Shown in pieces: positions 4,632 to 51,888 of a stretch of DNA of 64,000 nucleotides (the stretch's first letter is position 1; every line of letters starts with the position of its first letter). Made by a program: the position numbers and the translations under genes. The stretch lies in the NCBI RefSeq assembly GCF_002024165.1, contig NZ_MWQN01000001.1, forward strand, positions 3,513,365 through 3,577,364, written 5' to 3'. The notes beneath the pieces were generated by a model that did not search any database, was not told where the DNA came from, and worked only from the letters and a program-made list of their open reading frames with translations. This DNA is from Embleya scabrispora. Its GTDB lineage: Bacteria; Actinomycetota; Actinomycetes; Streptomycetales; Streptomycetaceae.

Positions 4632-4655
4632 CGGGCGGGCCGACGAGGGCAGGGC

Positions 4656-31803: not shown

Positions 31804-32634
31804 CTATCCCACCTTTGCGTCCCGCCGAGCCCACTCTGTTGCGGAGAAACAGGAGGCAAGCCACAGCGCCTCGGGCATGTTGAGGATCACTCCACTGATG
31901 ACCGAGACAGGCGTGAGCCGCCGGAGTTCCTCCGGGAAGTCTCCGCCGAAATCGAGCCCCTGAGACCAGGCCCCTGGCATGAGTAGTCCGCCAGGCGTGA
32001 TTCGGATCGGATTCCAGTCGAGGTCGCTGTGAAGGAGGGTAGCGTACGGCTCCCCGCGGCGCTGCCAGAAAATCAACTGCTCGTCAAACTCATTGACCCA
32101 ATGTAGGACATGATCCGCAGGGTCGAAAGCAACTCCTGCCATCTCGCCGAGATGACTCAAGACGGCGTTCCGACCTCGGTACCCGCCAACGTACGCGCGG
32201 GCCCTATCCACAAAGCTCGCCACGGTAGTGGTGTCCAGCACAGAAGTCGCCGGAAGCCTGATGGTGCGCGGCCTAGAGCCTTTGTGTCGTCCACTACGGA
32301 GCTGTTCTGTGGCGTTCGCCCAGTACAGCTGCGCCGTATCCGGATCGAAGACAACACAGAACACGGGCACATTTCCATTTGCCCAAGTCTCGTAATGTTG
32401 TCGCACTGGCACGGCGTAACCATATGATCGTCGCCATGAGGTACCTCCCTTGACCTGCATCTTGATGACGTCATTGGTTACGCGCCCGGCGTTGGCGAAG
32501 GTGACGAACAGATCCTCGCCATAGTCGTTCTGCCCCGAGATCTCTTCTACGACGTGGTCCTGACTCTGCAGGAGGGTGCGCAAGGCGTTAACTGCCGCCT
32601 GCTCCATCCGTCGCCCGCTGGGAACCGTCGTCAT
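31804..32634 (-). CDS. DUF4365 protein, restriction-endonuclease-like fold
   Basis: 276 residues from ATG 32634, with GAGGGG upstream; a GTG at 32649 is the alternative. Residues 8-165 match DUF4365: GRRMEQAAVNALRTLL, then GQNDYGEDLFV (Asp37 or Asp41) and KMQVKGG (60-64), the order expected of a PD-(D/E)xK nuclease core with Gln/Lys ends. The C-terminal 100 residues are not recognised. Such proteins occur in defence islands, but nuclease activity is inferred. It stands alone next to the att-like copy A. Confidence 0.7.
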   Translation of the reverse strand: MTTVPSGRRMEQAAVNALRTLLQSQDHVVEEISGQNDYGEDLFVTFANAGRVTNDVIKMQVKGGTSWRRSYGYAVPVRQHYETWANGNVPVFCVVFDPDTAQLYWANATEQLRSGRHKGSRPRTIRLPATSVLDTTTVASFVDRARAYVGGYRGRNAVLSHLGEMAGVAFDPADHVLHWVNEFDEQLIFWQRRGEPYATLLHSDLDWNPIRITPGGLLMPGAWSQGLDFGGDFPEELRRLTPVSVISGVILNMPEALWLASCFSATEWARRDAKVG

Positions 32635-32965
32635 GCCCCTACCCCTCACCCCGGTGACCGTCTGCTCACTGTGCCATTCGGGACGGACACCGGAAGGTGC
32701 TTCTGGTGGCCGCTAGGGTCCGGGAGGGACTCTTCACGAGTTCGGCGCACCTTAGGCATCGCGCTTCCGCTGCCTGGCATCCCCGACCGGATCGCGGACT
32801 CGGTCACGGGGTGGATGCCGGGCGGATCGACACTCATGCGGGCGCGGTACATGCACGTCACGGCCGATGCCGACGAAGGTTGCCGGGCCAGGCGGGAGCC
32901 GCACTCTGGGGCGCCCCGGAAGGCGCCCAAGACCCCAAGTGAGACGGAAACTGAAACAGGCAACG
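32635..32965. other. Non-coding stretch inside island III
   Basis: 331 bases upstream of the DUF4365 gene. Open frames here have no family resemblance or ribosome sites. It must hold the DUF4365 promoter. Confidence 0.5.
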
Positions 32966-34457: not shown

Positions 34458-35882
34458 CTACGACTCGAACAATGGAGGTTGGTTCCAGGGCGAAATCGTC
34501 TGCTGGTCGTCGTCCCCGAGGAACGACATCAGCTTCTCGTCTTCGTCGCTGGAGAGGTCGTAGAGGAGGCGCGCTGTGGTCCCGATCAGCTCGTCCAAGG
34601 GAACTTGGCTGCGAGCACCCCGAGCGCTGGATACGTGGTGACTAAAGCTGCACCGAAGAACTGCTCCTGAGCGCGTGGGTGCATCGGCTTCGATAACCGC
34701 TTCTTCCTGCCCAAGCGCCTGGCTGATGCCGATGAGCTGGGTGTCGTGTACGACGTTGTCCCCAGGGCCGTCGTATCCGATGAGACGATCGGTCACGACC
34801 ATCCTGATCGACGACAGCGCGATCGAGAAGCGGTCGGCGCGGGCACGGACCACATCCAGCGGTGGCTCGTCGAATGTTTCAGCCGCACCTACATCCCTGC
34901 GTGTCTGGGCTACGTAGGCGCGGAAGCGGGGTGTTTGGAGCATTAGCTGCCCGCGATCCACTGTCCATCGCCATGGACCGGTCGGTGACCCGGAAGTCGT
35001 CCCTGGAGCGATCAAACAGACACGACTCTGCCAGTGCCGGACCGCCGGACGCATGAGGTGCTGGAGGTTTTCGGGATCTCGCACCGGTGTGCGCAAGAGA
35101 AGTGGCAGGCTGATGAGGGCAAGCAGCCGGTTCCAGAACTCAGTGTCGGGAATCTCCTCGGCATCGAGTATGTAGCCCAGCGTGGGTTCGTCCAGCCATC
35201 CTGATCGGCGGATCGTTCCCGGGAAGCTGGTGAGCGGTGCACCACCTCCCTGCCAAAGAGCGGCCATGAATGCCGTTATGCGGTCGGCCACTTGCGGAAC
35301 CATCTGCGTGGACACCGCCTCTACGGCAGTCCGAGTAGGACCGGCCCGTCCGTCGCGGGCCGCCGCGACACCAGTGCTCACAGCTGTGGCGAACTGGGCC
35401 GCCGCCGGCCCATCCAGAACGCCTCGGCCGCCTTCGACAACTGAACTCGAGATCAGCCGAGGAACGCTGGGACTGTCCTCGACCGGCACCAACTCGCCGA
35501 ATGCGTTCGTGTCCAGCAACAGTGCCTGCCGCTCTGTCGCCTCGGATCGGAGCCCAGTCGCTTCCTCGACGGCCGCGAACTGACCCAGGGACAAGACCAT
35601 GGGGCGGTCCTTGGTCTGCAGTCGCGTGATGTCTTCCTGAAGCTCAGCCGGGTTGTTCGTTGTTCGTAGGTATACGTATCGATCCGGTGTGCGAGCGGCC
35701 TGGGGCCAACGAATCACCATGTCCGGGGCGAACGTGTGGTTGAAGAAGCTTGTCGCGATGACTTCTGCTCGTGGTTCCATACGTCGTAGCTGTCGGCCGA
35801 CGACCTCCTTCACCCGGGCAAACGGCCGCCGCGGTTCGGCCTCGTCCATCGCTGCCATGATCGCCTGCGACGCCTGATTCAC
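34458..35882 (-). CDS. Large hypothetical protein, second gene of a putative nuclease module
   Basis: 474 residues from GTG 35882, overlapping the upstream stop as GTGA, with AAGGGGG before it. The N-terminus has a helix (ARVKEVVGRQLRRM), then SFFNHTFAPDMVIRWP and RYVYLRTT, which could be a degenerate PD-(D/E)xK core. The rest is mixed alpha/beta with no recognised motif; the C-terminus is acidic (SSDEDEKLMSFLGDDD). Strict coupling to the upstream gene suggests a complex or toxin-antidote-like pair, but this is inference. Confidence 0.5.
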   Translation of the reverse strand: MNQASQAIMAAMDEAEPRRPFARVKEVVGRQLRRMEPRAEVIATSFFNHTFAPDMVIRWPQAARTPDRYVYLRTTNNPAELQEDITRLQTKDRPMVLSLGQFAAVEEATGLRSEATERQALLLDTNAFGELVPVEDSPSVPRLISSSVVEGGRGVLDGPAAAQFATAVSTGVAAARDGRAGPTRTAVEAVSTQMVPQVADRITAFMAALWQGGGAPLTSFPGTIRRSGWLDEPTLGYILDAEEIPDTEFWNRLLALISLPLLLRTPVRDPENLQHLMRPAVRHWQSRVCLIAPGTTSGSPTGPWRWTVDRGQLMLQTPRFRAYVAQTRRDVGAAETFDEPPLDVVRARADRFSIALSSIRMVVTDRLIGYDGPGDNVVHDTQLIGISQALGQEEAVIEADAPTRSGAVLRCSFSHHVSSARGARSQVPLDELIGTTARLLYDLSSDEDEKLMSFLGDDDQQTISPWNQPPLFES

Positions 35883-36484
35883 CACTGTTCCCCCTTGCGG
35901 ATGAGCTCGGCAGCCACGATGGCTTCCCAGTCCTTCAAGGGCACCAGCGTCTCTTGCTTCTCCGACAGGACGATCAGCCAAAGCCGGGCCGCGACCTGTG
36001 CCACGACGTCGGGGTCGATGACTGCGTCGGCTGCATCGCGATCGAGCCCGAAGACACGTTCGCTATGGAGCAACACCGCCTGTTCGACCTGCTTGGGTGA
36101 ATCCAGCTGCGACCAGGTGTTGGCCCGGAACGGAGCCCACGTGATCCACATCAAATGGTCGCTCAGCAGGTGGTCCGCTTGGCGAGCTACGTAGCACTTG
36201 GCGACGAACTCGTCGAATTGTGCGCCTTGGTCACTGGGCTTCTGGTAGTTCTTTACCTCGGCGCAGAACATGTCGCCGTGATACGGAGCGCCTCTCATCG
36301 ATCCACCGAGGTCGAAGGAGAAAGTCTGCCCACCGTGGGGCCACGCCAACGTCAACCGCCGTGCACACGAGGGAGAATCCGTGTTGGCATAGGCACCAGA
36401 GATCCTCATGGTGCCCTCAAGCCACATCTTCGCCCTGCGAGCGCCCGAGAACCCTTTGAGGTGGGCGTCCTCCCCCACTGTCAC
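35879..36484 (-). CDS. Putative PD-(D/E)xK nuclease-like protein, first gene of the module
   Basis: Up to 201 residues from GTG 36484; ATGs at codons 20 and 26 are possible alternatives. SFDLGGSMRG followed by MFCAEVKNY fits the Asp ... Glu-x-Lys pattern of the restriction-endonuclease fold, with a Gln (QGAQF) shortly after. Conserved-looking Trp-rich segment LMWITWAPFRANTW lies mid-protein. Coupled by GTGA to the next gene. I do not recognise a named defence family. Confidence 0.5.
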   Translation of the reverse strand: MTVGEDAHLKGFSGARRAKMWLEGTMRISGAYANTDSPSCARRLTLAWPHGGQTFSFDLGGSMRGAPYHGDMFCAEVKNYQKPSDQGAQFDEFVAKCYVARQADHLLSDHLMWITWAPFRANTWSQLDSPKQVEQAVLLHSERVFGLDRDAADAVIDPDVVAQVAARLWLIVLSEKQETLVPLKDWEAIVAAELIRKGEQW

Positions 36485-36625
36485 GCATTTGAGGGTAGAG
36501 GAGATTCGCGGTCATGCAAGGCGCATATGGCAGCAACCGCAACTGGCGGGATCGGCCCACCGCCGTAGAGGCGACCAATCATCGGCTCACCGTCGCTGGC
36601 TGACGTACAGGCGGGGACTTGCCAA

Positions 36626-37171
36626 GTGGGAGGCGTTGTGTTCGTGCTTCCAAGCCGAAGGTGTGTCCCGCCCGCGTTCGCGTCGGCGTGAGATCGGGAC
36701 GGACCCCCGTGCCGCGCGGTGACCGCCGTCGACGATGGCTCGGGCAGGTGCTGACGGCGGCCTCGGCCAACAACGACCACGACGTGAGCATCGGTGCCGA
36801 TATCGACCTGGTAGTTGGTGGGGTAGTGGTGGTTCTTTGGACGTTCGGCCACGGCGTGGTTGCGGGTGGGGACCAGGGTGCCGTCGACGATCGGAACGGT
36901 GCCTTTGCGGAACCGCACGAGCCTGGAGTGCGAGTTTCAGGCCGGGGTCGTCGGCGATCCAGCCTGCGGCCGACTTCGATATGCCGAACAGGGGGGCGAG
37001 TCGGCGCAGCTCCGGGTTCGCTCGCCGGCATTCGGTGACCATCAGACCCCGATCCTCCATCGGCAGTGCCGACGCCTGGCGCTTGTCGACCCGATCGACT
37101 TTGTCGCGACGAAGTGCTGTCATGAGTCTGCCGAACCGGCGTGGGCTCAGCCCCGTGAACGGGGTCGTACA
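36626..37171 (-). pseudogene. Decayed IS5-family DDE transposase
   Basis: Pieces in two frames match one IS5-like transposase: the N-terminal helix-turn-helix part (RRDKVDRVDKRQASALPMED, LAPLFGISKSAAGWI) down to about 36915, then the first catalytic part (RKGTVPIVDGTLVPTRNHAVAE) in another frame, then IVDGGH, SRRRERG and WKHEHNASH back in the first frame. At least two frameshifts plus loss of the C-terminal end make it inactive. No terminal inverted repeats were identified. Confidence 0.85.
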
Positions 37172-37245
37172 GGACGGCTCCGACGCCGTGATTACGCCAG
37201 CCACATCAAGATCACCCTGCCTGCGACCAGCACTACGGGACAACG

Positions 37246-39018
37246 CTAGACCATCCTTATGGAACTGCCGGATGTCACTGTGCAGTTCGCTTGTGTAAGG
37301 TCGAGCATTCGTTCAGCCCGGTTAACGAGTTGATCGTAGGTGACTACGTCAATGCGTGTCATGTGACTCGCGTAGGTTCGCAGGATCTCTGCGATCTCGC
37401 TGGGCGTAGCCCGGTGTGCCGTGAAGGCACTATGCCCGATTACGACGGTCATCGAGGCTCTGCGGCAGTCAATGCCGAATTCCGCCAGGATCGTGTGACG
37501 CTGTTCGTCGAGGCTGACGAGGTAGTTCATGGCCTGATTGACCGCCTCATGGACCTCGATCCCCGGAATCCGATGATTACGAAGCCTTTTGACCAGGTTC
37601 TTGATCTCAGCCTTCTTGATTTCGACACCGTGCAATGTTCCGTCCGGACGAATCAGAGACAGGTCGAGCTGGTCAAGGACGGTCAGCCTGCGACGGGCCG
37701 TGCCGCTCAGGAAATCGCCGCCAAAGATCCAGGTCATGTTCTCCAGGATCGCTTGGAGTTCGGCTTCGCTGGTCCCGTGGGCCTCGGAAGCCGCCTTCAG
37801 GCGAGCCAGGTCCGTGCGGCGACGCGCCTGCTCTATCAACGTGGTCAGGGCACGAGCCTCGTCGATCCCGGCGGCAGTCAACGCGCCGGTCGGATCGCTC
37901 CTGAGCACCCTCAGCAGCTTGTGTACGGTGGAGCGGGAAGCCTTGCCGGTCACTAAATCGTCAGCATTGTTGACGGGGCTTCTTTCGGATGTTCGCTGTC
38001 GATCAGGAGGGTAGGTGGTAGTGAGTTGGATGCCGATTGTGGTGCGCGTTGCCGTGATGAAGAGGTCGGGATCATCGGCGAACGCGCTCACCCCGTCGAG
38101 TTGATGAAGGCGCAGGAGTGGAACCTGGTTGACAAAGTTTTCGCTGTAGAAAGAGGCAGTCTTGTCGTCATGCGTCTTGGCTATGACCCAGCGTTCGATC
38201 GGACGCTCCTGGTCGACGGCGAATTCGCCTAGATAAAGAGCAAACTTACCGCGCCTTTCGAAGACTCTCAGGGGGATGCCGCGACGCACATGGGTCAGGA
38301 TTGCTCGATTCTCTGAGGAAATGCTGTAGCGGTCCTCGATACCAGGGACGATCAGGGCACCATCCACCCATAGCGGCGAAATCTCCGTAGGCGAAGAATT
38401 GCGGGTGAGGAAGAGCAGCGTATTGGGAGTTAGGGCGCTGGAGGTGAGCGGAGAACTGCGGTTGCCTCCGTAGACATCGTGCACCTGTCGCTTCGGGACG
38501 ACCATTCCCGCATCGATGTTCCAAGAGGCCGGCCATGGGACCGTCGGTAAGGCGGGATCAGTGATAAGGTCGACGAATCGCTGCCACAGTTCGGGCGGAA
38601 GCTCCAAAGCGCTGAGGGTTCGCATGATCCAGTGCACCGAGCGAGCTGAGCGAGCGTGTTTGGCCACGTCTCCAAGGCCGGATTCGGCGAGTTCGGGGGC
38701 CCCGATTGGCTTTCCCAGCCGCAGTCGGTCGAACGACAAGGTGACTTCCACGTTCGCAGGCGGCTCGACCGGTGTAACGCCGGCACTGGCCGCGCGGGTC
38801 ACTCTCCTGATCTCGTCCTCGGAGGGCGTGCTGCTGCGGACCGTGCCAAGACCGACTACGCCGCCGCCACGCCCGGGACGCCACATGACCACCGGATCTC
38901 CAGTTCGGACGTCGGCGCGGGCCAGAGCGCGGATGCGTGGATCCCAGGCGTCAATGGCTGAATCTGAGTTGGCCCTCTTGTCCTGCGCCACATAGAGCCA
39001 CTGTCGCAATTTAGTCAT
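37246..39018 (-). CDS. EVE - SRA-like - Shedu (DUF4263) fusion protein
   Basis: 590 residues from ATG 39018. Residues 1-150 look like an EVE domain (KLRQWLYVAQDK, GDPVVMWRPGRGGGVVGLGTV, RSVHWIMRTL), a reader of modified bases. Residues about 175-270 follow the SRA-like pattern of bacterial McrA-type enzymes (VHDVYGGNRSSPLTSSA, then WVDGAL, ENRAILTHVRRGIPLRVFE, YLGEF). Residues about 415-540 match the Shedu nuclease: AILENMTWIFGG, LDQLDLSLI, GVEIKKAEIKN, with the Glu-x-Lys at about 466-468. I infer a nuclease guided by modified DNA. The start has only a weak ribosome site. Confidence 0.75.
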   Translation of the reverse strand: MTKLRQWLYVAQDKRANSDSAIDAWDPRIRALARADVRTGDPVVMWRPGRGGGVVGLGTVRSSTPSEDEIRRVTRAASAGVTPVEPPANVEVTLSFDRLRLGKPIGAPELAESGLGDVAKHARSARSVHWIMRTLSALELPPELWQRFVDLITDPALPTVPWPASWNIDAGMVVPKRQVHDVYGGNRSSPLTSSALTPNTLLFLTRNSSPTEISPLWVDGALIVPGIEDRYSISSENRAILTHVRRGIPLRVFERRGKFALYLGEFAVDQERPIERWVIAKTHDDKTASFYSENFVNQVPLLRLHQLDGVSAFADDPDLFITATRTTIGIQLTTTYPPDRQRTSERSPVNNADDLVTGKASRSTVHKLLRVLRSDPTGALTAAGIDEARALTTLIEQARRRTDLARLKAASEAHGTSEAELQAILENMTWIFGGDFLSGTARRRLTVLDQLDLSLIRPDGTLHGVEIKKAEIKNLVKRLRNHRIPGIEVHEAVNQAMNYLVSLDEQRHTILAEFGIDCRRASMTVVIGHSAFTAHRATPSEIAEILRTYASHMTRIDVVTYDQLVNRAERMLDLTQANCTVTSGSSIRMV

Positions 39019-39329
39019 CTTGTTCCAGGTGCGAGTAGATATCAATAGACGTATGCCTGCCATGGTGACCCGAGGCACCGACAACTCGGTGATGATCCGC
39101 CCCTGTGGATGTCTCTTGCGCAACTGCTGTTCGTACGCCGGGCGTTACGACTCTGCTGTGTACTCCTTGACAGCCCCGCGAATTCGGATGCCCTCCATGC
39201 GGCAGGGTGACGGCTCTCCGGCGGGTGGGTCGACGTATCCGCGTGAACCACCGTGAACGCGGGTGGCCGGGACCGCGTCAAAGTAGGGCTGACCGGGGGT
39301 GTGTTCCCGGGCCAACTGCAACCACAACG
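39019..39329. other. Intergenic region upstream of the Shedu fusion
   Basis: About 310 bases without a credible gene; it presumably contains the fusion gene's promoter. CAACTGCAACCACAACG at 39313-39329 repeats sequence found next to the intact tRNA. Confidence 0.5.
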
Positions 39330-40571: not shown

Positions 40572-41378
40572 TCAGTGCAGGTCTCCCATCCACATCCGCC
40601 GCCCCACCTCGTCGAGCTCGGCCCGCCGGGCCGCGTACTCGGGCAGGGCGAGGCCCAGGAGCCGCCAGAAGGCGTCCCCGTGGTCCGGAACTCGGACGTG
40701 TGCGAGTTCATGCGCGATGACGTAGTCGACCAGGTGCATGGGCAGCTGGAAGAGCGGCCAGCCCAAGGCCATCAGCCCCGGCCCGCCCCCGCGCGCATCC
40801 GGCCGGTACAACCCCCAGCGGTCTTGGAGGTCGCGCACCTCCAGCTCCGGTTCGGCAACCGCCATGCGAGCCGCCCATGGCTGGAACCGGTTGACGGCCC
40901 AGGCGCGGCCGACCCGGGCGTACCAGTCGACGAGGGCCGCCCGCCCTGCCGGCGGATGCTCGGCGAGATGCCCGGCCATCACGAGCCGCCCGGCCATCAG
41001 CCGCACCCGGCCGTCCTCGGAGGAGCCGTCGGAGATCGCCAGTCGGTAGGTCCTGCCCAGGTAGCGGAACACCTCGCCGTCGGCCAGGTGCTTGGCCGGG
41101 TGCAGGGACCTGGTCCGCTCCCGCTCGCCAAGCTTGGTGACCAGCCAATGGCGGTGGGCCCGGACGAAGTCCTCGGCCTCCACCGCCGTGCGGTCCGGCG
41201 GGGTGTGCAGGGTCAGGGTGGCGTCGGGCTCCACGGTCAGCGCGAACCGCTTGCGCCGGGGGTGGGCGCGGACCCGCAGTGAGAACCCGTCGATGTCGAT
41301 CGACACACCCCCCGGGAGGCAGACGTCTGCCAGGGTGTCCTGGCTGCTGTCGGCATGCTTCTCGGCGGGTGCGGTCAC
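40572..41378 (-). CDS. SprT/YgjP-like zinc metallopeptidase
   Basis: 268 residues. N-terminal beta-rich part (RRKRFALTVEPDATLTLHTP) and the gluzincin motif HELAH at 223-227 with a third His at 233 (VPDHGDAFW), as in the DUF45/YgjP family often encoded in type I restriction operons. The GTG start at 41378 nearly abuts the hsdR stop, whose TAG forms part of TAGGAGG, so translation is coupled. The role in the restriction locus is unknown; protease control of HsdR is possible. Confidence 0.8.
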   Translation of the reverse strand: MTAPAEKHADSSQDTLADVCLPGGVSIDIDGFSLRVRAHPRRKRFALTVEPDATLTLHTPPDRTAVEAEDFVRAHRHWLVTKLGERERTRSLHPAKHLADGEVFRYLGRTYRLAISDGSSEDGRVRLMAGRLVMAGHLAEHPPAGRAALVDWYARVGRAWAVNRFQPWAARMAVAEPELEVRDLQDRWGLYRPDARGGGPGLMALGWPLFQLPMHLVDYVIAHELAHVRVPDHGDAFWRLLGLALPEYAARRAELDEVGRRMWMGDLH

Positions 41379-41382
41379 CCTC

Positions 41383-44300
41383 CTATTCTCCTCTCGCCCT
41401 GCCCAGGAACTGGCGGCGGTTGTCGTTCGCGAAGGAGGCGAGTCGCTCGGCCATCGCCTTCAGCGGAGCCCAGTCCTTGTCCGCGGGCCGGAGCCCGCCA
41501 GCCAGTAGCCTTCCCTGGATGACCCCGGCCAAGGTAGCCAAGTCCTGGCTCTGCCCCTGGTAGGACACCTTCACCATGGTCTCGGCCGCCACGTCGCACA
41601 GCTGACCGACGAGCGGGCGGAGGTCGTCCCCGGTTTTCCTGACCTCGGTGCTGTCCGCCATGAGCTGGACCAGCAGGCGGTAGGTCCTCTGCTCCAGCGG
41701 GCTGAGGCCGGCGACCTCCGGGTCCTCCTCGTGCTCCTGCCTGGCCTCCTCGATCAGACGTGCGAACTTCTCGGCCTGCTCTTCGAACCGGTCGGGAGTG
41801 GTCCGGAGGATCTCCTCAAGGCGTTCCGACAGGCGCTGGTACTTCTCCGGGTCCTCCCGCCGGACCCGCTCCTCCAGGTGGAACCGCAAGGCGTGCCCCA
41901 TCTCGGCCGCAGCCTCGCGGGGCGGCAGGCCGCGCACCGCGTCGTCGAAGCCGTCTGCGGTGATCCAGACCGGCGGGATCGCCTCCTCGATCTCCGGCCC
42001 CTCCAGATGGTCGGCGATCATGGCCCGGACCTTCCGGCCGTATCTGCGGAGGGTGAACGTGCCGCCCTCGGCGTCCCGGAACAGGCGTCGCACGCGCTTC
42101 TGGAGCAGCCCCCAGTGCCGGGCGTCGTTCACGTACTCGAGGGCAGCCTCGTGTGGCAGTACGCGTTCCATCGTGTCCAGGAAATTTTGCAGTGCCGTGT
42201 CGAACGCGAGCCGGGTGCGCTCGTCCTCGAACCGGTCCAGGGCGGCACGCAGTCGCACCGGGTCGGTCAGGTCGGCGTCCGTGACACCGAGGTCGCGGAG
42301 GAGGCCGCGCACGGCGGCGGCAGCGGGTTCGAGACTTTCGATCTCCACCGACATGCTGCGCATCGTGTCGTGCTGGTCGGCCTCCCGGTATCCGGCCAGC
42401 GCCTTGTTCAGATGGCCGAAGACGCCGTAGTAGTCGACGACGTAGCCGATCTCCTTACCTGGGTGCGGGCGGTTGACGCGGGCGACGGCCTGGAGCAGTT
42501 CGGCGCCGCGGATCGGGCGGTCCAGGTAGAGGACCTGCTCGCGGGGGGCGTCGAAGCCGGTGAGCAGCATCGACTTCACGATCAGCATCGCGATGGGACT
42601 GTCGGGGTGCACCGGGTCGGGCACGGCCCCGCGCCGGGACGCGTGGGGCTCTGTGACGGCGTGGGACCAGGGATGATCCGCGTTCCGGTCGGCGGCCTCC
42701 GCTTCGGGAGTCGTAACCGGCGGAGTCACCGCCGTCGCCTGGGCCCACACCGAATCGGGGGGCAGCAGCGGGAACGCCTTCTGGAAGCGCGCGATGTACG
42801 CCTCCTGCCGCCTGGAGTCGGTCCACTCCGCCCACTGGCCGTGCTTGCTGCCGGTGCTCGGAGAGATGACGGGCACGAAGTCGATCCGGCGCAGCAGGGC
42901 CCGGAACTGGTGGGCCTGGTGCAGATAGCGCAGTCGGCCCTCCAGCCTCTCCGGCGGAGTGCCGGCGACCGACTCGGGGTCGTACCCCTCCAGTTCCTCC
43001 AGCAGCCGGTCGCGGGCCGCCCGCAGAGCGTGGTGGTACTCCACGGCGGCCTTCCGGCTGACGGCCGCGACCTGCGCCTTGAAGCCGCCGGGCAGCACGG
43101 TGGTCACCCAGTGCTCCAGCATGTCCTCAGCCTTGGCCGCGATCATCGGCTCGGACTCGGCGACGTCGCTTCCGGTGGGCCACCGCTTCAGCAGCGCGGC
43201 CTTCTCCTCCGGCGTGCGGTCGCGGACCAGGTCGTCAAACCGGCGGTCGAGGCCCGCCCCGTCCTTGACCTCGCCCTCCCCGGTGCGCCCCTCGTAGCGG
43301 ATGCGGACGACGACCTCGTCGTGCTCGGCGTCCTCCATCCGGTACTCGTCCAGGAAGCCGCGCGGGGAGTCACCGCGCCCGAAGATCCGGCGGGTATCCT
43401 CCTCCCGCCCGGTAGTGATGGGCGTTCCGGTGAACCCGATCTTCGCCGCGTTCGGGACGGCCTTGCGCAGAGCGGCGTGCAGCACGCTGGTGTGCGAGCG
43501 GTGTGCCTCGTCGACCAGGACGAGGATGGCGGGGGACGTGTTGCACTCGGGAAAGTTCGGCACGGGCGGCGCCACCTCGGCGCGCTTCCCGGCGCGGGTC
43601 CGCTCGGCCTCCGCGTACTCCTCCGCCAGGTCGCGGCCGTCCTCGTCCTGCTCGGCGTCGCCGGAGAAGGTGAGCCCGACCCCGTACTTCTGGATCATCC
43701 CGAAGACGACCCGCCGGCCGCCCGCTCGCAGCAGGCCCTCCAGTTCGGTGCGGGTGTCAGCCGTCACGACCTCGGACCCGCTCGTGTCCAGCGCCTCGGT
43801 GAGCTGCGTCTGCAACTGGGTGCGGTCGGTGACGACCACGACGGTGAACTCGCTCAGCCTCGGGTGCGCGTGGACCCGCCGGACGAGGAAGGTCATGGTC
43901 AGGCTCTTGCCGGAGCCCTGGGTGTGCCAGATGACGCCGCCGCGCTCGTCCTCGGTCGTCGGCCCGCTCCGGGGCCGCCCGTCGAGCAGCCGCCGTACAG
44001 CCTTCTCGGCGGCCCGGTACTGCTGGTGGCGGGCAACGGCCTTGACGGTCAGCGTGGCGCCGGAGTCGGTCTCGACGGGCAGCTCGATCACGTAGTGCCG
44101 CACGATGTTGAGCAGCGCCGCGGGGCGCAGCACCACGCCTACCAGCTTCTGCTGCTCGCCGAGTGCGGCCAGCGCGGACCCGTCGGCAGCCGGCACGAGC
44201 CCCGCCGTGAGGAGTTCACGCCGCAGGGTGCTGCCGTCCTCGGGCTCGACGCTGCGCCAAGGGTGGAAATGCTCGGGGCCGGAGGTGACAGTCCCCAGGT

Positions 44301-45015
44301 GGGCGGTCTCACCGCTCGCCGCGACGAGCAACTGCACGGTGCGGAAGAGCTCAGGTACGCCGGCGGGCCGGGTGGGCCCCTCCGCCGGACGGGCCCGCGC
44401 TCCCTCCTCTACGACCGGGTTGCCCGCGTAGTGCCGAAGGTCGAGAACAGCCTCGCGGACGGGCTCGGCGAGGTCGGGACTCTTGCATTCGACGGCGACG
44501 AGCGGGATGCCGTTCACGAAGAGGACGACGTCCAGGACGGAGTCCTTGCCCGCGCGGTTCCTGACCCGGAGCTGGTCGACCACGGTGAAGTCGTTGAGAC
44601 CGACCCGGTCGGGGTGCCACTCGATGTACTGCACCGTGGCCGACGCCCCGCCGTGCCCGGCAGAGGGCTTGCTCAGCACGAGTCCGCTGAGCAGCAGCCC
44701 GGTGGCCGCCAGGTTGGCCTTGACGATCCCCTCTCCGAGCGGCACGCGGACGAGTGCCGTGATGGCGCGGTCGACGTCGCTCGCGCCCATCCAGGGCACG
44801 CCGTCCAGGGCCCGGGTGTTGATCCGGCGCAGGGCCGGGTCGAGGAGGTCGGCGAGCAGGGGCCTGTCGACGTCGAGGGTGCCGATCTCGCGGCCCGGCC
44901 GGTGCGTCCACCCCATCGCCTTGAGCTGTGCGACCAGCGGCCGCTCCACCTCGTCCCGCTCCACCTGCATCACCACGAACCCGCGCCTCTCCCCGTACGT
45001 CCACTGGAGATCCAT
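41383..45015 (-). CDS. hsdR: Type I restriction enzyme, R subunit
   Basis: 1210 residues. N-terminal nuclease domain with Asp162 and Glu176-Cys-Lys178 (VLDVVLFVNG, AVECKSP). SF2 motor: Walker A HTQGSGKS at 364-371, DEAH at 502-505, FTGTP near 527, and motif VI QAVARVNRP. C-terminal helical region as in other R subunits. It translocates DNA and cleaves when the target site is unmethylated. The start could instead be the ATG at 44970. No frame break is seen, so it is probably active with the M and S subunits encoded upstream. Confidence 0.95.
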   Translation of the reverse strand: MDLQWTYGERRGFVVMQVERDEVERPLVAQLKAMGWTHRPGREIGTLDVDRPLLADLLDPALRRINTRALDGVPWMGASDVDRAITALVRVPLGEGIVKANLAATGLLLSGLVLSKPSAGHGGASATVQYIEWHPDRVGLNDFTVVDQLRVRNRAGKDSVLDVVLFVNGIPLVAVECKSPDLAEPVREAVLDLRHYAGNPVVEEGARARPAEGPTRPAGVPELFRTVQLLVAASGETAHLGTVTSGPEHFHPWRSVEPEDGSTLRRELLTAGLVPAADGSALAALGEQQKLVGVVLRPAALLNIVRHYVIELPVETDSGATLTVKAVARHQQYRAAEKAVRRLLDGRPRSGPTTEDERGGVIWHTQGSGKSLTMTFLVRRVHAHPRLSEFTVVVVTDRTQLQTQLTEALDTSGSEVVTADTRTELEGLLRAGGRRVVFGMIQKYGVGLTFSGDAEQDEDGRDLAEEYAEAERTRAGKRAEVAPPVPNFPECNTSPAILVLVDEAHRSHTSVLHAALRKAVPNAAKIGFTGTPITTGREEDTRRIFGRGDSPRGFLDEYRMEDAEHDEVVVRIRYEGRTGEGEVKDGAGLDRRFDDLVRDRTPEEKAALLKRWPTGSDVAESEPMIAAKAEDMLEHWVTTVLPGGFKAQVAAVSRKAAVEYHHALRAARDRLLEELEGYDPESVAGTPPERLEGRLRYLHQAHQFRALLRRIDFVPVISPSTGSKHGQWAEWTDSRRQEAYIARFQKAFPLLPPDSVWAQATAVTPPVTTPEAEAADRNADHPWSHAVTEPHASRRGAVPDPVHPDSPIAMLIVKSMLLTGFDAPREQVLYLDRPIRGAELLQAVARVNRPHPGKEIGYVVDYYGVFGHLNKALAGYREADQHDTMRSMSVEIESLEPAAAAVRGLLRDLGVTDADLTDPVRLRAALDRFEDERTRLAFDTALQNFLDTMERVLPHEAALEYVNDARHWGLLQKRVRRLFRDAEGGTFTLRRYGRKVRAMIADHLEGPEIEEAIPPVWITADGFDDAVRGLPPREAAAEMGHALRFHLEERVRREDPEKYQRLSERLEEILRTTPDRFEEQAEKFARLIEEARQEHEEDPEVAGLSPLEQRTYRLLVQLMADSTEVRKTGDDLRPLVGQLCDVAAETMVKVSYQGQSQDLATLAGVIQGRLLAGGLRPADKDWAPLKAMAERLASFANDNRRQFLGRARGE

Positions 45016-45123
45016 TCTGCGCGGCGGGATGGGGGCGCGCGAGGAGTACGGGAGAGAGAGCGGCGAAAAGGGGTGCGGACGTACCAGAATGCGGTGGTAC
45101 GTCCGCGCGGAGACTCGTTCCGG

Positions 45124-45381
45124 TCAGCGCTCAGCGGCGCCTTCGCGAGGGTCCCTGGCCTCCTCTCTTCCCGCTCCGGAGCCGGAAGGCGGGTGGCCCC
45201 TGTTGTGGGTGATCCGGACGACGCCCCGCAGGGCCTCGGTCATCCGGTCGCCCAGGAAGCCGAGCTGTACGGAGGTGGCGCGGATGTCGGCCAGCAGGTC
45301 GGCGGCACGGGCGAGCAGCCGGGCGGCCATCTCGAGTTGGAGGCTCTCGACGGTGTCGGCGGTCAAGGGTTCTCGACACAT
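45124..45381 (-). CDS. Hypothetical small protein between hsdS and hsdR
   Basis: 85 residues from ATG 45381. First half is helical and amphipathic (SLQLEMAARLLARAADLLADI), second half Gly/Arg/Glu-rich and disordered. Only a weak ribosome site. It may be a small antirestriction or regulatory protein, but nothing identifies it. Confidence 0.35.
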   Translation of the reverse strand: MCREPLTADTVESLQLEMAARLLARAADLLADIRATSVQLGFLGDRMTEALRGVVRITHNRGHPPSGSGAGREEARDPREGAAER

Positions 45382-45392
45382 TCGCCACGCCT

Positions 45393-46022
45393 GTGGTTTG
45401 GGTTCTCCTGGACGAGGCAGCGTTGCATCGCGCAGTCGGAGGGCCGAGGGTCATGGTGGAGCAGATCCGGCACATGGTCTGCCTGATGGAGGCCAGCCGG
45501 GTGCGGGTTCATGTGATGCCGTACAGGATTGGCGCTTACCCTCTGCTGCAAAGCATGCTCACACTGATGTCGTGGACCAACAACCGGTCGCATACTCGGA
45601 GGGGCTCCAGATGGGCAGGCTTCGCGCCTCTCCGTCTGTGGTCACCCGACTCCAGGCCATCTACGATCTTGCGCTGAGCGACGCGCTGTCGCTAACCGAG
45701 TCACTCGTCGACATGACTGAGCGCAGCGTTCCGGACAGCTCCGCGTGGGAGGGCTGGCGCAAGTCCTCGTACAGCACCGCCGGGCAGCAGCTGCGTGGAG
45801 GTATCGGATACCTTCCCCTCGGGCGTCTCCGTCCCCGTCCCCGTCCGCGACTCCGAGACCCCGGATGGCCCGGCGGTCGTATTCCCCGCGCCGAGCTGGT
45901 CCGCGTTCGTTACGGCCCTGCGATCCCCTCTCCCGCTGACGCTCGGACCCCCGCAACCGCGTCGGGGGTCGCTCTACTCCTCAGCCCCCGACCACCTAAA
46001 CGGCAACCCGCCCGGACAGTAG
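45393..46022 (+). pseudogene. Decayed DUF5753/DUF397 regulator-toxin-type gene pair
   Basis: VWVLLDEAALHRAVGG and EQIRHMVCLMEASRVRVHVMPY are the DUF5753 C-terminal domain of streptomycete XRE regulators, but the N-terminal helix-turn-helix is missing. A later segment, WRKSSYSTAG, is the start of DUF397, and VSDTFPSGVSVPVPVRDSETPDGPAVVF continues it in another frame, so the DUF397 part is frameshifted near 45787. XRE-DUF5753/DUF397 pairs are common in streptomycetes; this copy is a remnant. Confidence 0.75.
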
Positions 46023-47207
46023 ATCGTCTACTAGACCCGCTTTGAGCTGACGAAATTTGGCGAGTTCGTCAGCCTCGCGAGCAATTTTTCGATCACAAGT
46101 CGCAAGCACAGCCACGCCTTGCCTCTGCCTGACCAACGAAGGCAACGGAATTTCGATGCTCTTCAGCTCTTCTTGAGGCAGCTGGAACTGACCACTGGTT
46201 CCGCGAAACTTGGACACGATTTGCCGTCGTACATGAGGGGCAACCAAAACCGCCCCAAGGTAGGCGGGGTCTAGAACTCTGGCATCAGCCACCAATCGCA
46301 TCACGAGATCAGAAAGCATGATTCGGCGAGGAGCCTCATCGACCACACAAACCGATCCCACGAGACGAGCGGATCCATTGACGCGCACCATTAGCACGTC
46401 ACCGCGGGAGATCTCTAGTTCGGGACGCACTCTGACCTGCGACAGAATGCGCTTGATTTTTTGAGCGTCGAAATTTCCCGATGTCACGGCTCCAAGACGC
46501 ATCACACCCCACTCTCCTGGATTCGGCACACCCTCCGGCCCCATTGAAGGAACGCCGACCTCCAACCGATCCAACAGCTCCCGCAACGGAGTCATGGGAC
46601 TGTCGGATCGACCGCCAGCCAGAGAGAGCAGCATCCCTTCCCGCACGCTGCGCAGCTTGGCGATCGACGCCTCGATGCCGCGTTCCAGCTCCGCAAGGCT
46701 TGCGAGCACGTCGACGATCCGCTGTTGCGCAGAAATGGGGAACAGCGGGAACCTCAGGTTGCCGAACCTGCTCCCGCCAAGATGCGAGATGCTCGTCTTC
46801 TCAGCAATGCCGGCGAACACCGCGTTCGCACGCCACCAGACGAACACCGCTTGCGCGAACGCAGGCAGCACCACAGATCCGGGCCGAAACCGGATCAGAG
46901 TGTTCTGAAAACAGTAGGCTCCAGGTTCGCCGTCGTACAGCGCACTCCGCCCAACCATCATCAGGTTCTCCTGCCCTTCATTCAGCAGGATGTCGCCCGG
47001 CTTCAGGCCATACGTTGCGCGTTCGGCCGATGAGAACGCCATCGTATTGACGTCGGAGTAATCGATGCGTCCCTCATAGACGTTCGCGACTCGCAGGTAG
47101 GGCCATTGCCCGTCCCCCGCTCGGCTCGCCGGAGACAATTGCTTGCCCATGCGGACGTCACCGAGTTCCCTCACGGGAATGTACCGAACGGACGCGTCAC
47201 TCCGCAT
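45996..47207 (-). CDS. hsdS: Type I restriction enzyme, specificity subunit
   Basis: 403 residues with two target-recognition domains: the first (about 8-150) contains [22 protein letters not shown] and the [21 protein letters not shown] hinge; the second (about 205-370) has the matching [21 protein letters not shown]. Two coiled-coil conserved regions follow each domain. It overlaps hsdM by 11 bases. The recognised DNA sequence cannot be read from the protein. The gene is AT-richer than hsdM, common for S subunits. Confidence 0.93.
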
Positions 47208-49854
47208 AACCCAGCTCCCTCAGGAACCCGTCCAGCTTCGACGTCGCCCGCTCGCCGTCTGCGCGGATCTCGGCCAGCGAGACCGCGTACTTGCGCTCCC
47301 ACGTCTCGTAGGACGTCGTCAACTCCCGCTGCCAGCGGACCACGTGGCCGTTCAACTTCGACGCGAGGTCGTCGCAGAGAAGGGCGAGGACGACCCGGCG
47401 CTCCTCTGCCGCATCCAGCGCCGCGCGCGTACGGAACAGACGGGGCGGCTCCTCGCCCAGGGTGGGCGGGTCGCTCGGGTAGGGGAACCAGAAGTCCGCT
47501 TCCAGGCGCTTGACCACCGCGCCCGCCTTCGCGCGGTCCTTCTTCACGACGGCGATCTCCGCCAACAGCTCCACCAACTCCTCCACCGAGAGGGTGATTT
47601 CCTCGACGTCGGTGTCGGACTCCTCGTCGCCGTCGCCGTCGCCGTCGGCCTCCGCCGAACCCGCCGAGCCACCCCCTGCCGCCGGCTCCTTCGGCAACCG
47701 CCCGTTGAGTTCCTTCCACTTCGCGTCGAGGTCCGCCTTGCGCGCGTCCGCTTCCTTCAGCTCCGTCAGGAAGTCAGGGGCGATCGCGGCGACGAGCTTG
47801 TGGTCGTACGCCTGACGCCGCTCCGCGGCGGTCCGCTTGCGCTCCTTCTTCGTGCGGGGGTCCTGTTCGGGGGCGAGCAGGGTCTCGACGTTCTCCACCC
47901 AGCCGTCGATCACGCCCGTGAACCCGTTCTCCGACAGGGCGAGCAGGTCGTATTTGGCCTCGTGCCACCACCCGGCGACCGCGCCCGCGAGCGCGTACCG
48001 GTCGAGGAGGCCGACCTGGGTGAGCCGGTCGACGAAGGAGTCCATCAGCGAGCCGCGCGCCCGCATCAGCGCGGCCTTGCGCTCGGAGGCCGTGGACGCG
48101 GCGAGCAGTTCCGGTGTCGCGGCCACTGCTTCCAGGTGCTTCGCCTCCGCCATCCACCACTCGGCGAACGCGGCCCGCAGCTCCTCTTCGCGCGGCCGGG
48201 CCAGCGCGCCAAGGTCGGGGCGGGCTTCGACCGGCCAGAAGTCCAGGTAGTCGGCGTCTACGGGCGAGCGCTCCGTGAACAGGTCGTCCGCCCCGATCCC
48301 GTACGCGTCGAGCAGTTCGCTCTTCGCCTCGATCTCGGCGCGCGGCACCCCTCCGACCAGGTGCGCCCTGACGTCTTGCGGCTCGGGTGGCGGCGTGTTG
48401 TCCACGTAGCGGCGGATGTTGAGGTTGTCGCCGTTCTCGGCGAGCTCCTCGCGGGTCACGACGCTCGAGAAGCCGGGCACTTCGGCGAACGTCCGAAACG
48501 TGGTCGTGATCTTCTCGGCGTGCTCGGGCAGCAGCACGTTTTGCGCCCGCTCGGCGTGGTACTCGCGGTCCGCATTGATGAACAGGACCTTCCCCGCGCG
48601 CTCCGGCTCGTCCTCCCCCCTGTCCCGGTCCTTGCAGCCAGGCGGGCGCAGCACCAGGATGCAGGCCGGGATGCCGGTGCCGTAGAAGAGGTTCGGGGCG
48701 AGGCCGATGACCGCCTCCACGGCGTCCTCGTCCAGCAGCTTCGTGCGGATCTGCTGCTCGCCGCCGCCCCGGAACAGCACGCCGTGGGGCATGACGGTGA
48801 TGACCATGCCGCCGCGCCCCTCCTTCTTGGTCTCCCAGAGCATGTGCTGGAGGAACATCAAGTCGGCCTTGCCGCGCTCGCTGGTTAGGCCGTAGGAGGT
48901 CCGCTCGGTCCTGTGCGCCAGGTCCGTGGCCGTGTAGTCCATCGAGAACGGCGGGTTGCTGAGCACCCCGTCGAAGCGGTCCGCATCCGAGGTCGGGACA
49001 TGGGTCGGCCTTGCCAGGGTGTCGCCGGTGGTCAGATCGAAGCGGCGTACGCCGTGCAGGACCATGTTCATCGTGGACATGATCCAGGAGCCGCTGTTGG
49101 CGTCCTGGCCGGCGAAGAACATGTCGGAGGTGTCCCCGCCGTGCTCCTCCACGTACTCCGCGGCGTGGATGAGCATGCCGCCCGAGCCCACGCACGGGTC
49201 GTAGATCCGCATACCCTGGGTGGGGGCGAGGAGTTCGACCATCATGCGGACCACGGCGCGCGGGGTGTAGAACTCGCCGCCCTTGCGGCCGGCCGAGTCG
49301 GCGAACTCTTTGATCAGGTACTCGTAGGCGGCGCCGATCAGGTCGGGGAACTCGAAGTCGTCCGTGCGCAGCCGGACCCGGCCGAAGTGCGCGATGAGGA
49401 GTTCCAGGCGCTTGTCGGCCAGCGTCGCCGTGCCTGCGGCGGCGCCGGAGCCGCCGATGCGGTTGAAGTCCAGGTGGTCGAAGAGACCCGTCAGCTTCTC
49501 GTTCTGCCCTTCGAGCAGTTGCAGGGCGGGGCGCAGCACGCTCTCGTTGATGTTGTGCTTGACGCCCGAGAGCTCGTGCCACCTGGCCTTCTCGGGCACG
49601 AACAGCACGTCGCGTTCGCGGTACGGGGCCTCTTGCTCCAGAAAGGCGTCGAGCTCTTCGCCGTCGAAGCCCCAGTCCCTCCTCGCCTGCTCCCCGATCC
49701 GCTCCCGGGCCGCCTCGAACTCGTCGTTGGCGCGCTTCAGGAAGAGCAGCCCGAAAATGTAGTCCTTGTACTCGGAGGCGTCCATCGTCCCCCGGAGGAT
49801 GTCGGCTGCGGCGAACAGGTGCCGCTCCAACTGGGCGAGCGTGAGCTTGGCCAC
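47197..49854 (-). CDS. hsdM: Type I restriction enzyme, N6-adenine methyltransferase subunit
   Basis: 885 residues. HsdM N-terminal helical domain ([20 protein letters not shown]), SAM site DPCVGSGG at 219-226 and catalytic NPPF at 300-303. The protein is longer than typical (about 500-550): after residue 600 there is an added helical, acidic region ([18 protein letters not shown] near 715). It modifies adenines in the HsdS target and protects the host. First gene of the hsd run after the RloA/RloB pair. Confidence 0.93.
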
Positions 49855-49942: not shown

Positions 49943-50626
49943 TCAGTAGGAGGCGATGCCGAGTACGTCCTCGACGAAGGTGTGCATGTCCGTGTACGGG
50001 TCGCGGTTGAACTTGGGCACATGGTCACCGTGCTGATCGTTCATGCGTCGCGCGTTGTCCCGGGCCTCTGCGAACCTGCCGAGAACCTGGCCGGGAAGGA
50101 CGAGCTTCGGATTGGCGGCGTCCTCACTGCCACGCTGGAAGGGCAGCCGGTCGGCCACGAGATCGCACACCCCCTCGAACGAACCGGTGACCGCTTTGTA
50201 GTGGGCAAGCCGCCACACCTCGAAGCACGGATGCGAGAAGGCGACATGAACACCGGCCTCCTTGGCCAGTTTCATCGCCTCGGGGACCCGCGGATGGTTG
50301 TCGTGGTCGAAGACGCACCAGACCTGCGGCTGGGCGGCAGCGCCCTTCAACTTCGCGCGCTTGGCTTCGCGGGTCTTCTCGCGCAGGAAGTCAGCCGCCA
50401 TCTCGACGAGGTCGATCGGCTTACGGTCTACCTTCTTCTTCCGGTTGGCGATGCGCAGCTCGACCTTGGCGGCCGGGTTCTTCAGTACCCCCACCTCAGT
50501 GATGATGTCGAAGTACGAGGGCTCGGTCACCTCACCCTCGGTGAATACGAAGACCACCCGTCTCCGCTGTCCCGACCCCCTCGAGGACCGTCCCAACGCG
50601 TCGGTTCCCCGCTGCGGCCGTGCCAT
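49943..50626 (-). CDS. RloB-like protein (AbiLii-type)
   Basis: 227 residues from ATG 50626, overlapping the ATPase stop by one base (TGATG). The TOPRIM-like pattern of RloB is present: VVFVFTEGEVTEPSYFDII (acidic residues), then WCVFDHDNHP (Asp-x-Asp) and SHPCFEVWRLAHY. RloB is often paired with an AAA ATPase and linked to type I restriction loci; AbiL-like systems use this pair for abortive infection. Nuclease or RNA-cleaving activity is inferred. Confidence 0.82.
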   Translation of the reverse strand: MARPQRGTDALGRSSRGSGQRRRVVFVFTEGEVTEPSYFDIITEVGVLKNPAAKVELRIANRKKKVDRKPIDLVEMAADFLREKTREAKRAKLKGAAAQPQVWCVFDHDNHPRVPEAMKLAKEAGVHVAFSHPCFEVWRLAHYKAVTGSFEGVCDLVADRLPFQRGSEDAANPKLVLPGQVLGRFAEARDNARRMNDQHGDHVPKFNRDPYTDMHTFVEDVLGIASY

Positions 50627-51888
50627 CAGCCCTGCCCCGCCCCTCCGTACGCCCCGGTCTCCCGCGCCGTCGCCAGCCGCCGGGCGATCTGCCCCTCGAG
50701 CAGGGACGGAACGCCGCCGAACGCTCCCGCGAGGTAGGACTGGGTGAGATCCTCCTCCTCGCCCGGGTCCGCGTCCGTCAGCGGGTAGAGCTCGGTCGCC
50801 CCGTCCTTGTCCTTCTGTGTCAGCCACACCTGTCCGGGTTCCAGCAGTCGCCCCCCGCTGGGGGTGGTCAGCATCGTCGCGTCATGGGAGGTGAAGACGA
50901 GCTGCGCACCATTGGGGTTCGCGAGGGGGTCGTGGAAGAGCCGCACGACTTCGGCGGCGAACCGGGAGTGCAGGCTCGCGTCGAGCTCGTCGATGAGCAG
51001 CACCGCGCCCTCGTCGAGGGCCAGCAGCAGCGGGCCGAGGAGGGCGAACCAGGAGCGGGTGCCGTAGGACTCCTCCGACCAGTCGAAGGCCACGTCCCCG
51101 CCCGCCGACCGGTGAGTCAGTTTCACCGAGCTCTTTCCCGGGCCCTCCTGCACGACGGAGGCCCCGGTGATGCCGAGGTCCGCGACCCTGAGCAGCTCCT
51201 GGATCCGCTGGGCGCGGTCCCCGGCGAGTTCCCGGGTGGTGAAGGTCTCGCGCTGAGGGCGTTCGGCCTCCGGGTCGATCGACCACAGATTGCGCCGGAA
51301 CCAGTGAAAGAGCGGGGAGAGCTGCGCATGGTTGTCCGTGCCGGCCGTGGAGAGCAGCAGGGCGTTCGGCCGGGTGCGGCGCACGAGTTGGGACCGATCA
51401 CGGATCCGGCTACCCGGCCACTTGTAGACCTCGGTCCGGGACGCGTCGCGGTCCATCCACTCCTGGCGGCGGCCGTGCGGGTAGCTGTGCAACCACTCAG
51501 ATTCGACCCGGTCCGAGCCAAGCTCGAAGCCGTACGTCCAGCGGACGGAGTCGATCAGGATGTCGACCTCGAAGAAGGACGGTTCGTTTTCGCTCTTCGG
51601 GTGCAGCGCGAAGACGTGGCGGGGGACGCCCTCGTAGGACGCCCAGCGAGCGTAGGAGTTGAGCACCGCGTGCCGCATGTCGCCGAGAGCGCTGAGCACG
51701 TTCGACTTGCCGGAGGCGTTCGCACCGAAGACGGCGAGGAGCGGGAAGACGGCCACGGTTCCGCCGCCCGCCAGCTCCACCGGGTTCGCCGACCCGTCGC
51801 CCCCGCTCTTGCCCTCGGGCGCGATGAAGGACAGTTCCTGTTCGTCGCGCAGGGACCGCACGTTCGCCACGCGGAATCTCAGCAGCAC
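50626..51888 (-). CDS. AAA15/21-type ATPase, RloA/AbiLi-like
   Basis: 420 residues from GTG 51888 with GGAGG nearby. N-terminal FRVANVRSLRDEQELSF and Walker A GANASGKSN (about 42-50); long insertion; Walker B VLLIDELDASLHS near 318 and switch His in FTSHDATML near 358. This is the SMC/ABC-like ATPase partner of RloB; the same architecture occurs in PARIS AriA and OLD-type systems. First gene of the run at the tRNA-proximal end of island I. Confidence 0.85.
   Translation of the reverse strand: MLLRFRVANVRSLRDEQELSFIAPEGKSGGDGSANPVELAGGGTVAVFPLLAVFGANASGKSNVLSALGDMRHAVLNSYARWASYEGVPRHVFALHPKSENEPSFFEVDILIDSVRWTYGFELGSDRVESEWLHSYPHGRRQEWMDRDASRTEVYKWPGSRIRDRSQLVRRTRPNALLLSTAGTDNHAQLSPLFHWFRRNLWSIDPEAERPQRETFTTRELAGDRAQRIQELLRVADLGITGASVVQEGPGKSSVKLTHRSAGGDVAFDWSEESYGTRSWFALLGPLLLALDEGAVLLIDELDASLHSRFAAEVVRLFHDPLANPNGAQLVFTSHDATMLTTPSGGRLLEPGQVWLTQKDKDGATELYPLTDADPGEEEDLTQSYLAGAFGGVPSLLEGQIARRLATARETGAYGGAGQG

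Follow-up and report, generated by a model that had tools for sequence, protein, structure and literature searches.

An EVE-SRA-Shedu Fusion Gene and Its Surroundings

The stretch of DNA analysed here (the window, 64,000 nucleotides) comes from the genome of the soil bacterium Embleya scabrispora, which comprises 10.96 Mb in 8 contigs. It carries on its minus strand a gene for a 590-aa protein that joins an EVE-like domain, an SRA-like domain and a Shedu (SduA/DUF4263) nuclease domain (Table 1). The reading frame contains one stop, at its end, and a GGAA lies four bases upstream of the ATG; a TTG at 39123 is a possible alternative start that would give a longer protein. A chance or wrong frame was rejected, as the minus strand is open throughout and the plus strand is interrupted by stops. 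The order of the three domains had been proposed in an initial annotation made from the letters alone, and it was borne out by Pfam and PADLOC for the nuclease and by profile searches, a bridging relative and AlphaFold models for the front half; the two motifs quoted there, YGGNRSSPLT and NRAILTHVRRG, are likewise present. Four other genomes (G013, G184, G525 and G746) carry the same three-part protein, giving five full-length members, and the architecture is therefore not a product of chance. The EVE-SRA-Shedu fusion is real and rare.

Table 1. Positions of the fusion gene, its domains and motifs, and the type I restriction genes in the window.
Feature	Residues	Window position	Strand	Basis or remark
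EVE-SRA-SduA, whole gene	1-590	37246..39018	-	590 aa; ATG start at 39018
EVE-like domain, PUA superfamily fold	1-158	38545..39018	-	AlphaFold fold matches; sister profile
SRA-like domain	163-315	38074..38532	-	AlphaFold fold match to SUVH5; sister profile
SRA thumb position, YGGNRSSPLT	183-192	38443..38472	-	Gln-Gly-Gly replaced; sisters e.g. YGGRTQGGIG
SRA base-pocket position, ISPLWVDGALIVP	I213-P225	38344..38382	-	both Tyr, Asp and Ser/Thr replaced
Conserved SRA segment, NRAILTHVRRG	237-247	38278..38310	-	N237, H243, R246 and G247 invariant in 5/5 Shedu-fused proteins
Linker, variable	316-384	37867..38073	-	18-30% identity to the other four members, counted over 311-384
Shedu (SduA/DUF4263) PD-(D/E)XK nuclease domain	385-578	37285..37866	-	Pfam, PADLOC, profiles
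Nuclease ExK, E466-I-K468	466-468	37615..37623	-	invariant in alignments A1 (3 rows) and A2 (8 rows)
Type I restriction system, HsdR		41383-45015	-
Type I restriction system, HsdS		45996-47207	-
Type I restriction system, HsdM		47197-49854	-

The G+C content is 0.62 in the stretch from 31 to 39.2 kb, against 0.70-0.72 on either side, and 0.60 in the fusion gene itself, and this stretch therefore looks acquired. Directly downstream of the fusion gene, an ORF at 36587-37243 is possibly what is left of a transposase gene (HTH_Tnp_4 match below the cut-off, E 0.032). Two overlapping genes of 507 and 201 aa occupy 34458-36484 and have no match in Pfam, PADLOC or NCBIfam. The smaller one contains, as judged by eye, a possible nuclease motif (EVKNYQ) and is matched in 6 of 121 family genomes, its own included, with the 507-aa gene adjoining in all three loci checked; the pair is possibly an uncharacterised two-gene system. 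A DUF4365 protein (1.9e-18) is encoded at 31804-32649 on the minus strand, and its residues 14-121 match the PADLOC model Aga_REase-PNTD1-PNTD2 (E 7.4e-9).

The predicted defence genes near the fusion gene in the window are those of a type I restriction-modification system, an RloB-like gene and an AbiLi-type ATPase gene. The type I genes lie within 40572-49854, where a YgjP-like metallopeptidase gene directly follows HsdR, and the RloB-like gene adjoins the AAA_21/AbiLi-type ATPase gene on the minus strand at 49943-51888.

The Shedu Nuclease Half

The C-terminal half was recognised by Pfam as SduA_C (PF14082) over residues 416-565, with an E value of 3e-12 and 47.4 bits, above the curated cut-off of 27, and by PADLOC as SduA (E 1.1e-71, 240.5 bits). 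In addition, a profile of eight related nuclease domains, built from and covering the nuclease domain only, matched the Shedu structure 8ps4 (E 7.4e-7), which we take to be E. coli SduA. The catalytic residues of DUF4263 are all kept: the Glu-x-Lys that had been pointed out at about 466-468 is accompanied by D452 (37663-37665) and Q495, which are also invariant in alignments A1 and A2. The E-x-K is kept even in the divergent G746 copy, as seen in an HMM alignment, and Pfam calls SduA_C in that protein with an E value of 2.7e-19. AlphaFold modelled the nuclease half poorly, and the assignment therefore rests on sequence, by which the window protein is a Shedu-family nuclease with its predicted active-site residues kept.

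The EVE-like and SRA-like Front Half

Pfam called neither EVE (PF01878) nor SRA on the window protein, even at E 10, NCBIfam returned nothing relevant, and a PDB sequence search with the single protein gave no match to the front half; sister proteins were therefore used to build a profile. This profile (A4) consists of seven proteins, none of them fused to Shedu (three EVE-SRA and four SRA only). It found the window protein among 2800 translated segments with an E value of 5.2e-17, covering both domains, and found all five Shedu-fused proteins at E values from 5e-17 to 5e-26. A bridging relative, L022 (genome G164), aligns to residues 15-282 of the window protein (E 2.1e-9) and is itself matched by Pfam EVE above the cut-off (8.5e-7) and by SAD_SRA below it (5.5e-4). 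In the Shedu-fused protein of G746, Pfam EVE scores 18.5 bits (E 0.0021), short of its cut-off of 23. Among solved structures, the sister profile matched ScoMcrA (5zmn, E 6.4e-8) and, weakly, TagI (E 0.83).

Two AlphaFold models were compared with known folds, one of the full-length protein (mean pLDDT 50.8) and one of residues 1-317 (mean pLDDT 63.7). Residues 1-158 of the models matched the EVE structures 2ar1 (Z 9.7, rmsd 4.6, 136 aligned) and 2eve (Z 8.7), as well as VcaM4I (6yex; Z 8.0, rmsd 6.3, 120 aligned; Z 8.0-8.5 over the two models). YTH chains (best Z 8.6) and ASCH chains rank close behind the EVE chains, so that the fold alone places this part in the PUA superfamily and the label EVE comes from the sequence evidence. 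Residues 163-315 matched the SRA domain of SUVH5 (3q0d; Z 8.8, rmsd 4.1, 123 aligned), and ScoMcrA, although the top sequence match of the sister profile, was one of the weaker fold matches (Z 7.5, rmsd 5.1). The best Foldseek matches were THYN1 (2.6e-4) and the SRA domain of SUVH5 (2.5e-3) for the full-length model, and 2eve (4.1e-4) and SUVH5 (1.8e-2) for the model of residues 1-317. The Z scores are moderate (about 8 to 10, rmsd about 4) and the pLDDT is modest; together with the profile evidence, we accept both the EVE-like and the SRA-like assignments as predicted folds. The AlphaFold domain assignment that had been suggested as a check on the initial annotation thus returned both a PUA-type (EVE-like) and an SRA fold, at modest confidence.

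Loss of the Canonical SRA Pocket and Thumb Motifs

In the available part of the TagI report, the flipped base sits between the pocket walls Tyr55 and Tyr67 and is held by Asp58, with the main chain of Thr68 next to it; the thumb residue Gln35 is expected to occupy the gap (PMC6212794). The pocket residues were taken from TagI, a weak match of the sister profile (E 0.83): the Tyr, Tyr and Ser/Thr of the sisters fall on Y55, Y67 and T68, and their Asp falls on D57, one off D58. The collected loci hold 18 different SRA segments, 12 from intact non-Shedu proteins, five from Shedu-fused proteins and one from a broken protein (L024), which stands outside the motif counts because its frame is broken.

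By script count, an aromatic residue plus Asp before x-Trp is present in 12/12 intact sister SRA proteins and 0/5 Shedu-fused ones, the motif [YF][TSG]G[ED]G again in 12/12 against 0/5, and the thumb QGG in 10/12 against 0/5; several of the 12 sisters are close relatives, and these are therefore not 12 independent events. Most sisters read HGYxDxW..FHYSG at the base-pocket position, with His-Gly-Tyr in 10 of the 12 and Phe in the other two (by eye). Inspection by eye also found Pro-Gly at the second pocket place in every Shedu-fused protein and in none of the 12 intact sisters; the L024 fragment likewise reads Pro-Gly. According to a sequence alignment that runs through low-confidence parts of the model (residues 189-199, 205-212 and 229-233, pLDDT < 50), the counterparts of all four TagI pocket residues and of the thumb Gln are replaced in the window protein. 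They are replaced as well in the other four Shedu-fused proteins, except for two remnants: G746 has a Gly-Tyr whose Tyr possibly corresponds to the first of the pocket, and G184 retains a thumb Gln, though not the Gly-Gly.

With other residues in place of the SRA base-flipping ones in every member, 5mC or 5hmC held in a canonical SRA pocket is most probably not the trigger, and a canonical 5mC/5hmC dual reader appears unlikely from these alignments. The initial annotation had predicted two modified-base readers and, from them, a type IV-like enzyme directed against phage DNA with hypermodified bases. Its domain order and nuclease residues stand, but the SRA half of the two-reader claim is unsupported by the motif counts, and the enzyme is not supported as stated, the canonical SRA flipping motifs being gone.

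For the EVE domain, the pocket of VcaM4I is formed by P24, W82 and Y130, and a pocket residue of 2eve is Tyr82, as given in the part of the VcaM4I paper that was available (PMC7897488). The window protein has no Phe, Tyr or Trp between W46 and F96, presumably the stretch that would hold the EVE pocket aromatic, the register to 2eve being loose. Aromatics are absent from this stretch in three of the five members (window, G525 and G746) and present in G013 and G184, with an uncertain register to VcaM4I.

What survives of the initial prediction is the possibility of a modification-dependent (type IV-like) Shedu nuclease with one or both pockets adapted to an uncommon modified base, perhaps a bulky one. 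Against this, no invariant polar or aromatic residue at 212-226 substitutes for the lost Tyr, Asp and Thr, the thumb Gln is gone in four of five members and the Gly-Gly in all five, and in three of five at least 49 residues without an aromatic follow W46 in the EVE stretch. EVE and SRA domains do read modified bases in solved relatives, as far as the available parts of two reports describe them (PMC7897488, PMC6212794), the missing Tyr walls could widen the pocket, and L222, P225 and G226 are fixed in 5/5, so that the site is conserved in a new form. We regard a re-tooled pocket as a less likely alternative.

Distribution and Conservation of the Fusion

Full-length matches were found in 3 of 200 family genomes and 2 of 391 order genomes, and, in further draws, in 4 of 394 family genomes among the matches listed at E 1e-60 and in 2 of 394 class and 1 of 396 phylum genomes among those listed at E 1e-30; every count includes the window's own genome and the draws overlap, making them samples and no census. 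Matches confined to the nuclease or to the SRA part are more frequent, with any match in 45 of the 200 and 75 of the 391 genomes, and the members are spread patchily over two families. One scan of genome contigs returned no relative, and a second returned five loci, one with a full-length and four with front-half relatives. No match was found among 50,697 phage records and no relative in the viral contigs scanned; 2 of 72,556 plasmid records match, both in the nuclease half only.

In alignment A8, the other members are identical to the window protein at 26-34% of positions in the EVE domain, 35-45% in the SRA domain, 18-30% in the linker and 57-61% in the nuclease, apart from the nuclease of G746, which is 26% identical in A8 and 30% over 166 residues in pairwise alignment. 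The front half of the G746 protein is 31% identical over 305 residues (pairwise). In a tree of 48 Shedu domains, four of the five fused members form one clade (100/99), and G746 (L069) sits on a very long branch of uncertain position. Its divergence may reflect domain swapping or fast evolution. Three Shedu domains without EVE-SRA are 45-49% identical to the nuclease of the window protein, and as the G746 nuclease falls below them, the EVE-SRA module may have moved between distant Shedu cores.

Across the five Shedu-fused proteins, 40 columns of residues 1-310 are invariant, and the front half therefore looks constrained and not decaying. R47 and R246 are invariant in all five; in three EVE-SRA sisters, R47 is Val and R246 is Asp or Leu. 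The EVE-SRA module thus seems, from these alignments, to be working under constraint in a changed form. This conservation, including arginines absent from the three sisters, suggests a working surface and speaks, indirectly, against a rival reading that we consider rather unlikely, in which the EVE-SRA pair is only a scaffold or autoinhibitor holding off the Shedu core, and the core itself senses the trigger, for example DNA ends. That arrangement would accord with the loss of the SRA pocket motifs, and it has precedents in the available parts of two studies, in which the EVE domain and linker helix of VcaM4I bar DNA from the nuclease in the crystal (PMC7897488) and DNA-end binding lifts the autoinhibition of a Shedu nuclease (PMC12904381).

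Genes around the Other Copies

In a tblastn search (E 1e-3), four neighbour proteins from the window gave no match in the 10.8-19.5 kb around the other four copies. A BLASTP comparison (E 0.01) of 74 predicted genes from the five loci found no neighbour common to more than two loci, the G746 locus being less well tested for partners as the crude gene caller missed its fusion gene and drew opposite-strand ORFs. The sole non-fusion pair, L060 1027-2295 and L079 11375-13180 (27% over 239 aa, E 1.8e-9), is not adjacent to the fusion gene in either locus. The lack of a conserved partner gene is as expected of a one-gene system.

At the G746 locus (L079), the fusion gene is flanked by two phage-integrase genes, at 3901-5157 and 13437-15041 (PF00589, 1.2e-19 and 3e-6), about 3 and 4 kb away, an arrangement suggestive of a mobile island. 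In the G013 locus, a gene for an Mrr-type nuclease (L060:6963-7493; PF04471, 2.5e-6) lies upstream of the fusion gene and overlaps an unassigned gene. A further locus, L081 (G082:C22), holds at 5276-5715 a frame-broken EVE-SRA fragment of the Shedu type, whose best match is L060 (E 3.7e-17), and the 8.2 kb read there gave no nuclease match below E 1.

Whether the gene could serve outside defence, as a repair or housekeeping nuclease, or be a decaying island gene may be judged from these surroundings. Its rarity, the low G+C of its stretch, the possible transposase remnant beside it and the broken relative in G082 would fit such a gene, but the frame is open, the catalytic residues are kept, the members are patchy in two families, defence genes are neighbours in the window, and integrase genes lie close to the G746 copy. 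We consider this explanation highly improbable.

Proposed Function

On balance, and with moderate confidence, we prefer to read the protein as a Shedu nuclease controlled by two consecutive DNA-binding domains of the PUA superfamily, whose specificity has changed or is not directed at a base; it would act as a single gene and probably against phages. By analogy with other N-terminal regulators of Shedu proteins, the EVE-SRA pair would be the sensor or regulatory domain. It may touch DNA, as both folds do in solved relatives and as the invariant R47 and R246 would suggest, and it may release or position the Shedu nuclease on invading DNA. The trigger would be a DNA feature that is read in another way, such as a different base chemistry, an end of the DNA or a structure in it. 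More speculatively, we suggest that a type IV-style EVE-SRA module could have been captured by a distinct Shedu lineage, with its cytosine pocket rebuilt (Pro-Gly for Tyr-Thr/Ser), and that the two PUA domains could act jointly to detect a base chemistry other than that of cytosine, or else a DNA end or structure, and so activate the Shedu core.

The fusion joins two defence strategies that are usually kept apart, modification-dependent restriction and the DNA-end nucleases of the Shedu type. EVE-SRA proteins that keep the SRA motifs and end in another nuclease, and those that lack the motifs and end in Shedu, form a natural set for finding out what Shedu sensors respond to. They also warn that neither an EVE nor an SRA fold by itself is proof of modified-base reading.

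Comparison with Known Systems

No EVE-SRA-Shedu fusion was found in the literature searched for Shedu together with an SRA or EVE domain, the published catalogue of N-terminal types lying outside that search. That catalogue of Shedu N-terminal types, by Gu et al. in Mol Cell in 2025, reportedly lists dozens of types. The available part of a BREX paper that names both Shedu and an EVE domain holds no such fusion, and the terms shedu and duf4263 are absent from the main text of an EVE/DCD survey (PMC7641849).

With the Shedu protein SduA (8ps4), the window protein has in common the C-terminal SduA_C/DUF4263 PD-(D/E)XK domain with its catalytic residues and, apparently, a single-gene organisation with a variable N-terminal domain. 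Its N-terminal part differs in being EVE-SRA: the variable region expected of a Shedu protein is present as residues 1-315, and is putatively regulatory. According to the accessible parts of two studies, Shedu nucleases share a common core under diverse N-terminal regulatory domains (PMC12137116), and in E. coli SduA an N-terminal clamp detects DNA ends (PMC12904381). VcSduA carries its Shedu nuclease under a GHKL ATPase front domain, which is enzymatic, whereas the front of the window protein is PUA-type (PMC12137116, part seen).

The SRA-HNH type IV enzymes TagI and ScoMcrA have the SRA fold in common with the window protein but, unlike it, an HNH nuclease and, in the portion of the TagI report at hand, a canonical pocket in TagI (PMC6212794). 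Similarly, the EVE-HNH type IV enzyme VcaM4I has an N-terminal EVE fold in common but an HNH nuclease, and its pocket, as described in the part of the paper available (PMC7897488), was not recognised in the window protein.

The EVE-SRA pair of the window protein is homologous to a pair found on another nuclease in Streptomyces and related genomes. Proteins of this kind, L022 (G164), L061:7884-9230 and L062:7878-9218, have the two domains in the same order and end in a different C-terminus (EVKS...GIGQLLDY), which looks PD-(D/E)XK-like by eye and has no Pfam match, and they retain intact YxDxW and YTG[ED]G motifs. Because its SRA motifs are intact, this family seems, judged by its motifs, a more promising dual-reader type IV enzyme than the window protein and suits the idea of the initial annotation better.
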